The notes under the pieces are model-generated. The model was not told the DNA's origin, did no database searches, and saw only the letters and a list, made by a program, of their open reading frames with translations. The position numbers and the translations under genes are program-made. Positions 34,837 through 38,237 of a stretch of 64,000 nt of DNA are shown piece after piece. Each line of letters begins with the position of its first letter. Within the stretch, counting starts at the first letter, position 1. Source of the DNA: Rhodothermia bacterium (GTDB lineage: Bacteria; Bacteroidota; Rhodothermia; Balneolales; Balneolaceae); contig JAUICM010000005.1 of NCBI GenBank assembly GCA_030427885.1, forward strand, positions 124,001 through 188,000, written 5' to 3'.

Positions 34837-34888
34837 AAATCGGGAGCTATTAAATTCTTCTGTTTGATAAGGATGTAAGGCTTCTTAT

Positions 34889-34910
34889 TTTAAGACAAAA
34901 TAGTCTTAAA
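34889..34910. promoter_or_regulatory. Perfect 8-6-8 inverted repeat before the Rrf2 gene (putative operator)
   Basis: TTTAAGAC (34889-34896), spacer AAAATA, GTCTTAAA (34903-34910). It ends eight bases before the ATG of the Rrf2 regulator gene, where bound protein would block transcription or initiation. Copies occur before nirK. It is inferred to be the binding site of that regulator (autoregulation). Confidence 0.7.
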
Positions 34911-34918
34911 TAAATTCC

Positions 34919-35368
34919 ATGTTATTATCCAAGTCTTGTGTGTACGGATTGAGAGCTTCATTGTATTTGTCGGCAAAGCAGGATGAGTACATTTCAATTC
35001 GCGAAATAAGTGAAAAGCTGGACATTTCTTTTCACTTCCTTACCAAAATACTACAACAGCTTACAGCAGATGGATTGATGGAATCATATAAGGGTCCGAA
35101 TGGGGGAATACGACTTTCTCCAAAAGGAAGAAAAGCTACCCTATTAGATATAGTGATTGCGATAGATGGTCCGGAGCTTTTCACTCAATGTGCCTTAGGT
35201 CTTCCTGGATGTGGTTCAGAGGACCCTTGTCCGCTGCACGAAAGCTGGCTTGGCACACGAACCGCAATAAGTAATATGCTGGAGAAAACCTCCCTGGAAG
35301 AAATTGCAAAAGAAGGCAAACAAAATAGATTCAGAATATCAGCAGGTGGTACTTTCAACTGGAGCTGA
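34919..35368 (+). CDS. Rrf2-family Fe-S transcriptional regulator (NsrR/IscR-like)
   Basis: A 149-residue regulator. The winged helix-turn-helix covers about residues 1-80 (SIREISEKLDISFHFLTKILQQL, then the wing GPNGGIRLSPKG). Three cysteines in CALGLPGCGSEDPC (about residues 92-105) match the iron-sulfur cluster-binding loop of NsrR, IscR and RsrR. Such proteins sense NO, redox state or cluster status. The downstream RIC repair gene and NirK point to NO/nitrite sensing. A perfect inverted repeat sits just before its start, and related sites precede nirK. Identity as NsrR is inferred, so no symbol is given. Confidence 0.9.
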   Translation: MLLSKSCVYGLRASLYLSAKQDEYISIREISEKLDISFHFLTKILQQLTADGLMESYKGPNGGIRLSPKGRKATLLDIVIAIDGPELFTQCALGLPGCGSEDPCPLHESWLGTRTAISNMLEKTSLEEIAKEGKQNRFRISAGGTFNWS

Positions 35369-35404
35369 TGTAAGAAAAGAACAAATTCATATTGTGTTCA
35401 TATT

Positions 35405-35426
35405 AATCAGATAAAATACTCTTAAA
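35405..35426. promoter_or_regulatory. Degenerate operator/half-site before the RIC gene
   Basis: AAAATA followed by CTCTTAAA (35413-35426) is identical to the right half of the nirK site, including the following AACTT. The left arm (AATCAGAT) does not match. It lies 17 bases before the ric ATG and may be a weaker site. Confidence 0.45.
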
Positions 35427-35442
35427 ACTTTAAATAGATCTT

Positions 35443-36138
35443 ATGAAAAATCTAAAACAAATGACTGTAGGTGAAATTGTAGCGGAAGATTACCGGGCTT
35501 CCCAGGTATTCAGGTCTAAAGGACTGGACTTTTGCTGCGGAGGTGGAAAATCACTTGAAGATGCCTGCAGTTCCAAAAACATAGATATTGAGCAGGTTGT
35601 AGAGGAACTGTCATTGCTGCAACATACTATCTCAGCAGAACCAAATTACAATGAATGGGGATTAGATTTTCTGGTGGATTACATTGAGCAGAACCATCAT
35701 AGGTTTGTAAGAAAAATGCTACCTGAAATATATTTCTATGCAGAGAAAGTTGCGGGAAGGCACGGTGTTAATCACCCCGAGTTATTGGAAATTGTAAGTG
35801 TGGTGAGGGAACTGGGTGCGGAATTGGATGATCACCTTACAAAAGAAGAGACCGGAGTATTTCCTGCAATCAAAGAACTGGTTCGGAACCATGAAAAAAT
35901 ACAGATCGGGCAGAATACAATGGAAACCCTGGAAGATGAGCATGAAACCGCAGGAGAATTAATGGCCAGAATTGAAAAACTGACCAATGGTTTTACGCCT
36001 CCGGAGGGTGCCTGTGCTTCGTACCAGATATTGTTCAAAAATCTGGAGGCCTTTAGCGCTGATCTGCACAAACATGTGCACCTGGAAAACAATATTCTAT
36101 TTCCGAAAGCGCTGGCTCTGGAAAATAGAATTAACTGA
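35443..36138 (+). CDS. RIC/ScdA/YtfE family di-iron iron-sulfur cluster repair protein
   Basis: A 231-residue protein. The N-terminal ScdA domain has the Cys-rich GLDFCCGGGKSLEDAC (about residues 26-41). A hemerythrin-like four-helix bundle follows with the expected metal ligands: NHHRFVRKMLPE, DHLTKEETGVFP, DEHETAGELM and HVHLENNILFP. RIC proteins repair Fe-S centres after nitrosative or oxidative damage, probably by delivering iron or releasing NO. It follows the Rrf2 gene by 74 bases and precedes two membrane proteins and nirK. It is probably under the same regulator. Confidence 0.95.
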   Translation: MKNLKQMTVGEIVAEDYRASQVFRSKGLDFCCGGGKSLEDACSSKNIDIEQVVEELSLLQHTISAEPNYNEWGLDFLVDYIEQNHHRFVRKMLPEIYFYAEKVAGRHGVNHPELLEIVSVVRELGAELDDHLTKEETGVFPAIKELVRNHEKIQIGQNTMETLEDEHETAGELMARIEKLTNGFTPPEGACASYQILFKNLEAFSADLHKHVHLENNILFPKALALENRIN

Positions 36139-36156
36139 GGCCTTAATATAGGAGGG

Positions 36157-36600
36157 ATGACCGTGCCTTTGATAACCCGGATATTTCTGAGATCAGGATT
36201 ACTTTTTTTTATGGGATCACTGGTACTTGGAATAGCGCTACAGGTGGAGGCATTGGGGTTTCCCGGATTGGTCCCATTGTTCTGGCATACTTTAATGGTG
36301 GGCTGGATCACACAGATCATTATGGGTGTTTCTTTGTGGATGTTTCCAGGCCGCAATAAAGTGGAGAGTTTCAGTAATCAGAAATGGGCCTGGCTGGCAT
36401 ATATATTTCTGGAATCAGGACTTATTCTCCGGATCATTTCAGAGCCACTCGTTCTTGTATCAGTATCATCCGCATGGAAAGTGATCCTAATAGTTTCTGC
36501 GTTCTTTCAATTTTTTGCGGTGATGAGTTATGTGATTGAGATTTGGCCGAGAGTAATATCCAAAGACAAACTGGTGCGGAAGAAATTCAAGGGGAAGTGA
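36157..36600 (+). CDS. Four-helix membrane protein with HxxxxGW motif (nitrite cluster)
   Basis: Not assigned to a named family. It has 147 residues and four helices. The second helix reads FWHTLMVGWITQIIMGVSLWMFP, a His-x4-Gly-Trp pattern that recalls helices of haem-copper/NO reductase subunit I. AGGAGGG lies directly before ATG 36157, which is too close for ideal spacing; GTG 36163, two codons in, would be better spaced and may be the real start. The next gene encodes a similar four-helix protein with the same pattern, so they may be halves of one haem-binding or sensor unit. Function is unknown. Confidence 0.75.
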   Translation: MTVPLITRIFLRSGLLFFMGSLVLGIALQVEALGFPGLVPLFWHTLMVGWITQIIMGVSLWMFPGRNKVESFSNQKWAWLAYIFLESGLILRIISEPLVLVSVSSAWKVILIVSAFFQFFAVMSYVIEIWPRVISKDKLVRKKFKGK

Positions 36601-36601
36601 A

Positions 36602-37012
36602 ATGCCTGATGTATCCAGATGGATGATCCGAATGTCACTGGTATATTTTCTTGTGTCAGCTGGCATCGGGATGTGTATGCTTATAAATAAAGCCCATCCT
36701 TATTTTCCTGAGGTATGGCTGTTACTGCCCGTACATATCGAGTTCATGATATTCGGTTGGGTGATCCAGTTTACTCTTGGGACTGCATACTGGATCTTAC
36801 CCCGTTTTCTGGATACAAAAGGTCGGGGGAATGGAAAAGCAGCTATGGCTATGCCGGTCTTGCTGAACATGGGCATTGTTCTGGTAGCATTGTCAACTTC
36901 TGGAACCGGCTTCAGCTACCTGGCACTATCAGGAAGAATACTTGAAGCACTCACAGTGATCCTGTTCATCTCACTGCACTGGAAGAGAGTGGTAAGCTAT
37001 TCGGAATCATGA
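36602..37012 (+). CDS. Four-helix membrane protein, paralogue-like partner of the preceding gene
   Basis: A 136-residue protein with four helices, including VHIEFMIFGWVIQFTLGTAYWILPRF. This repeats the His-x4-Gly-Trp arrangement and ends in Trp-x2-Pro like the upstream protein. Its start is one base after the upstream stop. The resemblance is to single helices of haem-copper oxidase subunit I, but the chain is far too short for a full oxidase. It is probably membrane-bound and co-expressed with RIC, which suggests a part in NO handling. No family was recognised with confidence. Confidence 0.75.
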   Translation: MPDVSRWMIRMSLVYFLVSAGIGMCMLINKAHPYFPEVWLLLPVHIEFMIFGWVIQFTLGTAYWILPRFLDTKGRGNGKAAMAMPVLLNMGIVLVALSTSGTGFSYLALSGRILEALTVILFISLHWKRVVSYSES

Positions 37013-37033
37013 GATTTGATCAGAATCAAAATA

Positions 37034-37055
37034 TTTAAGACATCTTCATCTTAAA
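37034..37055. promoter_or_regulatory. Distal 8-6-8 inverted repeat upstream of nirK
   Basis: TTTAAGAC (37034-37041), spacer ATCTTC, then ATCTTAAA (37048-37055), a seven-of-eight match to the inverted arm. It has the same geometry as the site before the Rrf2 gene. It lies 71 bases (centre to centre) upstream of the proximal nirK site, so two regulator dimers could bind cooperatively. Confidence 0.6.
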
Positions 37056-37104
37056 TTTACAATCACTCATTAAACTGCTTGCAGAATATCAATCGACAAA
37101 CTTA

Positions 37105-37126
37105 TTTAAGACAAAATACTCTTAAA
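37105..37126. promoter_or_regulatory. Proximal 8-6-8 inverted repeat before nirK (putative operator)
   Basis: TTTAAGAC (37105-37112), spacer AAAATA, CTCTTAAA (37119-37126). Only one base differs from the perfect site before the Rrf2 gene (C for G at the inner edge of the right arm). It ends ten bases before the nirK ATG. Confidence 0.7.
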
Positions 37127-37136
37127 ACTTAAAATC

Positions 37137-38237
37137 ATGAAAACTTCAGTAAACAAAATCAGACAATTCGTAGTGCTTGCAGCACTGACAATAGTACTTG
37201 CTATACCCTCTCAGGTAAATGCACAGGATAATGTGGATCAGTTAAAACGCGTTAAGCAAGAATTGGTAGCTCCACCATACCTGCCAGAATACGATCAAGT
37301 GGCAAAAGGGGAGCCGGTGATTGTTGAAGTGCGAATGAGCATTGAAGAAAAAGAATTAGAAATTGCACCCGGTGTAAAGATCTGGGCCATGACCTTCGAT
37401 GGCTCAGTGCCAGGACCAATAATCGTGGTTCACGAGAATGACTATGTGGAACTTACCCTCGTTAATCCTTCAACAAATACACTTCAGCATAATATTGATT
37501 TCCATGCTGCAACTGGTGCTATGGGTGGCGGGGATATATCAAAAGTGAATCCTGGTGAAGAAGTCACTATCCGCTTTAAAGCCACTAAATCCGGTGTGTT
37601 TGTATATCACTGCGCACCGGGTGGGGTGATGGTGCCCCTGCACGTAACTGCCGGGATGAATGGGGTGATCATGGTGCTGCCAAGAGAAGGACTAAAAGAT
37701 GAGAATGATAAACCTGTTCGATACGACAAAGCATTCTATATCTCAGAACAGGATTATTATGTACCAAAAGACAGTGAAGGTAATTTCAAGGAATATGGTT
37801 CACCGGCAGAGAGTTTTGGTGATGTAATGGAAGTCTTTGAAACATTAACTCCGACACACATCATATTTAATGGTGTTCAGGGCTCATTGATGGGTGAAAA
37901 TGCACTCAAAGCAAAAGTTGGTGATAAGGTATTATTCATAACCTCACAGGCTAACAGAGATACACGTATTCACTTGATTGGTGGTCATGCCGATCTTCTT
38001 TGGGCAGGAGGTTCTTTCAATGACAAGCCTGTTACAAACTATGAATCATGGAGTGTAGCCGGAGGATCTGCAGTAGCAATGATGTATGAATTCCTTCAGC
38101 CGGGAACATACGCATATCTCAATCATAACCTGATAGAAGCATTTATGTTTGGAGCAGCAGCCCTGGTAAAAGTGGAAGGAGAATGGGATGATGACCTGAT
38201 GAAGCAGGTAAACGAACCCTCAGCAATTAAAGAATAA
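37137..38237 (+). CDS. nirK: Copper-containing nitrite reductase NirK
   Basis: A 366-residue periplasmic enzyme reducing nitrite to NO. It has a signal peptide ([20 protein letters not shown]) and two cupredoxin domains. Type 1 and type 2 copper ligands are visible: [10 protein letters not shown] (about residues 119-128, including the catalytic Asp), then VYHCAPGG and [11 protein letters not shown] (Cys, His, Met; about residues 156-175). The second-domain catalytic His is in [11 protein letters not shown] and the last copper His in YLNHNLIEA. No NO reductase gene lies in the window. Its promoter holds two Rrf2-type inverted repeats. A terminator follows. Confidence 0.97.

Follow-up and report, generated by a model that had tools for sequence, protein, structure and literature searches.

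An Rrf2-family regulator gene, the gene of the Fe-S cluster repair protein RIC and the copper nitrite reductase gene nirK are close neighbours at this locus, and similar inverted repeats precede all three. This raises the question of whether the Rrf2 protein uses the repeat as its operator and, if so, which genes that protein would govern and in response to which signal. We considered it in a window of 64,000 nt (G000:C10:124001-188000) from a Balneolaceae genome of 4.15 Mb, and in the genomes of relatives.

The palindrome and its copies

The Rrf2-family regulator of 149 aa is encoded at 34919..35368 (+ strand), the RIC/ScdA/YtfE di-iron Fe-S cluster repair protein at 35443..36138 (+; TIGR03652, 239.6 bits, above cut-off) and nirK at 37137..38237 (+; TIGR02376, 475.9 bits). 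A reading of the sequence alone had reported a perfect palindrome before the first of these genes and a copy one base off before nirK, and both were recovered. Precisely, TTTAAGAC-N6-GTCTTAAA occurs with 0 mismatches ahead of rrf2 (34889..34910, +, as TTTAAGACAAAATAGTCTTAAA), 8 bases from the ATG, and the proximal nirK copy, with 1 mismatch (37105..37126, +, TTTAAGACAAAATACTCTTAAA), lies 10 bases from the ATG. A second nirK copy, claimed to lie 71 bases upstream of the gene, also exists with 1 mismatch (37034..37055, reading best on the - strand), but the 71 bases are the distance between the two copies, and the start of the distal one is 103 bases before the nirK ATG. As for RIC, only a right half had been noticed; the arm is there, but it belongs to a full site, AATCAGAT-AAAATA-CTCTTAAA, with a degenerate left arm (35405..35426, +, AATCAGATAAAATACTCTTAAA), and the RIC genes of relatives carry better full sites at the same place.

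In the whole genome (4,146,071 bases), the pattern search returned only three places with at most one mismatch, namely the perfect copy and the two nirK copies, whereas order-2 Markov sequence would yield 0.003 such places by chance in 64 kb. When 3 mismatches were allowed the pattern barely exceeded chance, so the signal resides in the near-perfect copies. With the oriented pattern AAGAYAAAAKASTCTTAA, the top three places of the genome were those at rrf2, nirK and RIC, RIC being the third.

The same motif is conserved among relatives. The named relatives are Balneola, Gracilimonas, Fodinibius and Rhodohalobacter. In 80 loci from named genomes, we took the best match at most 200 bases upstream of the Rrf2 gene, and in 54 loci it had 0-3 mismatches, where 0.2 were expected from shuffles. 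A position matrix was built from the Rrf2 promoters of relatives only, the window being excluded (56 distinct sites, 28.6 bits; consensus TATTTAAGAY-AAAAKA-STCTTAAATA). It assigned 38.8 bits to the rrf2 site, 36.3 to the proximal nirK copy, 27.2 to the RIC site and 25.4 to the distal nirK copy (- strand), with the next-best place in the window at no more than 11 bits and a maximum of 15.3 over 30 shuffles. A matrix of 12 non-Balneolales promoters (Calditrichota, Ignavibacteria and other) placed the identical four on top, in the same order, with 34.6, 28.8, 23.7 and 21.3 bits, the next place having 11.1.

We rejected the weaker genome copies at C3:108069, C5:134845, C10:38129 and C2:99155, which scored at most 19.4 bits and stood at no gene known to be related. 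The idea of a motif used broadly in Bacteroidota was also dropped: apart from Balneolales and a small number of other genomes, the motif was no more frequent than the reversed control.

Targets among relatives and the link with the regulator

In the 80 loci, 114 of the 118 sites of at least 20 bits were no more than 250 bases away from where an Rrf2, RIC, NirK-type or cytochrome c gene starts, while the shuffled loci (0.81 Mb) gave 1 match. A site was present upstream of 75 of 81 Rrf2 genes, of all 21 RIC genes and of 29 of 35 cytochrome c genes, the cytochrome c gene being followed by clade II nosZ (Sec-type, TIGR04246) in 30 of the 35 cases; in L107 nosZ is followed in turn by nosD and an ABC ATPase gene. 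The operator is also present at nirK orthologues and at some nirK-like genes that align with nirK of the window, and it is missing from nirK-like genes that are more remote (L197-L202, with about 35% identity). The Ignavibacteria locus L122 has the gene order rrf2, RIC, porin-like, nirK. In a further 22 loci, chiefly of Rhodohalobacter type, the Rrf2 gene heads an rrf2-hemN pair. Genes for acetate-CoA ligase (in three genomes), for PrpD-like proteins and for tyrosine phenol-lyase are less common targets. This comparative evidence supports the earlier proposal that a single regulator serves rrf2, RIC and nirK. The label "nitrite/NO regulon" that came with it is too narrow, because the regulon of relatives includes nos genes and hemN.

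Some loci deserve a separate description. The acetate-CoA ligase alpha-type gene is directly downstream of the operator in L061, L168 and L086, and two further genomes (L162, L110) have PrpD-like genes with the operator. The NirK-like protein encoded at L053:282-1406 and L173:1548-2681 is divergent (about 190 bits for TIGR02376, against a cut-off of 296), and its gene has the operator and promoter layout of nirK. Another NirK-like protein (L129:456-2147) has a C-terminal amicyanin/plastocyanin domain, and its gene has one operator in common with a divergently oriented RIC gene. A conserved protein of about 600 aa, which matched no Pfam or NCBIfam family, often adjoins RIC or an operator copy (L073:7372-9189, L109:852-2648, L132:1953-3770). 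In a Calditrichota locus, rrf2 with its operator precedes the gene of a multihaem cytochrome that remotely resembles hydrazine dehydrogenase (L144:6478-7719).

Is the palindrome a protein-binding site at all? A perfect inverted repeat so close to start codons could also act as a hairpin in the RNA or be a DNA repeat of the dispersed kind, but in the 63 sites considered the arm positions next to the spacer vary without pairing (C/C in 13, T/C in 10), and the copies are restricted to specific genes, with no others in the genome. Since this variation breaks base pairing, we considered the palindrome as a DNA site and rejected the hairpin; the hairpin-or-repeat explanation as a whole is scarcely credible. 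The spacer AAAATA, which the sequence-only reading had seen to be common to two copies, was not incidental either: the form AAAA(T/G)A is conserved, and it is A-rich on the coding strand, hence oriented with the gene, in 112 of 117 site-gene pairings.

Whether the Rrf2 protein is the one that binds was judged from co-occurrence in the Balneolales genomes searched for both motif and orthologue. Of 20 genomes that have the Rrf2 orthologue 15 carry the motif, and of 9 that lack it none does (p = 2e-4, an optimistic value because the genomes are related). The operator is most constant at rrf2 itself, as would be the case for an autoregulated gene, and the genome's two other Rrf2-like places, L017 and L018, lack a site. 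Another regulator of the same pathway, for instance of FNR or DNR type, might own the site, with rrf2 as merely one of its targets, and a perfect FNR/DNR-type box, TTGATCAGAATCAA, does occur just upstream of the distal nirK copy (37016-37029). But the motif itself is without FNR-box features and follows the Rrf2 orthologue, so to speak, in presence and absence, and we regard this alternative as very unlikely. The box was not conserved in the relatives examined; its presence here means that more factors may act on nirK. It is very probably the Rrf2 protein that binds the palindrome.

Promoter layout and the distal copy at nirK

In 42 of 68 Rrf2 promoters, which are related sequences and not 42 independent events, a TTG is found 26-27 bases upstream of the operator. 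In the window, the -35-like hexamers are TTTGAT before rrf2 (34863..34868, +), with its TTG 25 bases ahead of the operator, and CTTGCA before nirK (37078..37083, +), with its TTG 26 bases ahead of the proximal copy; no TTG at that spacing was seen before RIC or CytC. This spacing puts the operator on the -10/start region: the -10 region would overlap the left arm, and transcription would start inside the operator. With the operator over a -10-like region, repression by occlusion of the -10/start region is the favoured mode of action.

The two nirK copies leave room for a different mode, in which the Rrf2 protein activates nirK at the distal copy and represses it at the proximal one, or loops both. 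The spacing is similar where both copies occur (71 bases in the window, 69-70 in L171 and L053), and the second operator could therefore serve looping or activation. But the right arm of the distal palindrome, ATCTTAAA, is part of an element, TTCATCTTAAATTCACAA, which is common to the aligned nirK and nirK-like promoters, 58-61 bases upstream of the proximal operator, and to which chance matches are rare. The distal left arm TTTAAGAC is found in the window, L053 and L171 and is absent from L195, L173 and L170, nirK or nirK-like promoters that nevertheless keep a form of TTCATCTTAAATTCACAA. The conserved feature at this position is hence another element, and the distal copy, half of which belongs to it, is the weakest case among the four. 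In some species it may be a genuine second operator, overlaid on the site of another factor; activation or looping as the way in which nirK is controlled seems to us unlikely. In the window, the conserved nirK-promoter element is TTCATCTTAAATTTACAA (37045..37062, +), overlapping the distal copy, and it has the form TTCA...TTCA with an 11-base period.

The regulator and the signal

The Rrf2 protein of the window belongs to the Rrf2 superfamily (PF02082/TIGR00738, 105.1 bits, cut-off 73.3), with a winged-helix fold. The structure model, of a monomer, has the Rrf2 fold at high confidence (pLDDT 90); in fold comparison CymR, IscR, RsrR and NsrR were about equally similar (Z 13.5-16.4) and could not be told apart. 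In the 81 Rrf2 sequences C91, C98, C104 and H107 are invariant, and Cys7 is present in 80.

NsrR comes close among described regulators, being an NO-sensing Rrf2 protein with nirK, hmp, ytfE/dnrN and nnrS in its regulon, and the present regulon resembles it in the Rrf2 fold and in having RIC/ytfE (dnrN) and nirK as targets (PMC1274295). However, we rejected an identity with NsrR on three grounds. The protein scores 45.3 bits against the NsrR equivalog cut-off of 182 (NCBIfam). The operator here is AAGAY-N6-RTCTT, whereas that of NsrR is gATGyAT-N5-ATrCATc (PMC1274295), a motif that was at chance level in the window and absent before rrf2, RIC and nirK, in agreement with the earlier reading, which did not recognise a described NsrR site in the palindrome. 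Finally, Asp8, which in S. coelicolor NsrR is a ligand together with C93, C99 and C105 (PMC5411485), is replaced by V or I in 68 of the 81 sequences (V in the window) and is D in 2.

The ligands instead match, in type and order, those of the [2Fe-2S] cluster of E. coli IscR (C92, C98, C104 and H107; PMC5411485), and because Asp8 is also absent the regulator is IscR-like in this respect. It differs from IscR in the spacing of the first two Cys, which is longer by one residue, in having no isc genes nearby and in its targets, which are nir, ric, nos and hemN. It missed all the equivalog cut-offs; IscR gave the best equivalog score, but far below the threshold (64.1 bits, cut-off 207.55). These features point to an autoregulated, probably Fe-S-sensing Rrf2 regulator of a new subgroup, and not to NsrR.

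Taken as a whole, these data make it likely that the palindrome is the operator through which the Rrf2 protein, by way of a probable Fe-S cluster, represses rrf2, RIC and nirK. The protein would bind TATTTAAGAY-AAAAKA-STCTTAAATA, probably as a dimer through the winged helix, and on the -10/start region of the three promoters it would block transcription. The cluster would very probably be held by C91, C98, C104 and H107. Exposure to NO, or a cluster that is oxidized or lost, would disturb the protein and release the operator, after which rrf2, RIC (for Fe-S repair) and nirK would be expressed. In relatives the same regulator would also control hemN and the cytochrome c-nosZ operons.

With the same regulator and operator, the signal could be O2 or the redox/Fe-S status and not NO, the Rrf2 protein replacing FNR for anaerobic genes. 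The hemN, acetate-CoA ligase and PrpD targets of relatives suggest as much, together with the operators at clade II nos operons, the IscR-like C-C-C-H ligand set (PMC5411485) and the apparently few FNR-type regulators of the genome (one clear HTH_Crp_2 match). But the targets in the window are nirK and RIC, a protein that repairs NO damage, and both fit NO, which can likewise induce denitrification genes and hemN; we hold the O2/redox signal to be a real possibility, though short of probable. One wider proposal comes nearer to an even chance without quite reaching it: that a single Rrf2 subgroup, with C-C-C-H and a near-invariant Cys7, is a general denitrification and anaerobic haem switch in Balneolales, Ignavibacteria and Calditrichota, acting on nirK, RIC, clade II nosZ and hemN and doing the job of FNR/NnrR in Proteobacteria.

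Carriers of clade II nosZ consume N2O, and to our knowledge little is known about the control of nos genes in such carriers outside Proteobacteria. A defined operator and regulator common to nirK, RIC, nosZ and hemN would make this question directly testable. The NO regulons of HcpR, DNR and NnrR have similar targets but differ in their FNR-type family and FNR-like operators (PMC1274295). A like neighbourhood of Rrf2, cytochrome c, nosZ, nosD and nosF genes is described for Melioribacter roseus (PMC3534657) and an Ushuaia Bay metagenome (PMC6264515). In the accessible parts of these two papers, a regulatory role of the Rrf2 protein next to clade II nos genes is proposed or left open (PMC6264515 calls it "difficult to predict"), and no operator is given for it. 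In literature that included few subscription papers, we found neither this operator nor a denitrification regulator of Balneolales. The putative conserved Rrf2 regulon with its operator is hence without description in the literature searched, and one previously undescribed switch seems to govern denitrification in these bacteria.

The genome of the window itself has nirK and gave no NosZ over the cut-off; NorB was not found in it either, as its two COX1-family proteins of full length look like respiratory oxidases. Its regulon also bears on when such partial denitrifiers release NO. Between RIC and nirK there are two probable members of the RIC operon, which encode a 147-aa membrane protein with weak COX1 similarity (36157..36600, +) and a half-length COX1/NorB-like membrane protein of 136 aa (36602..37012, +; PF00115). 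Each of the two is similar to the initial part of a subunit of COX1/NorB type, and the pair is kept downstream of RIC in about a dozen loci.
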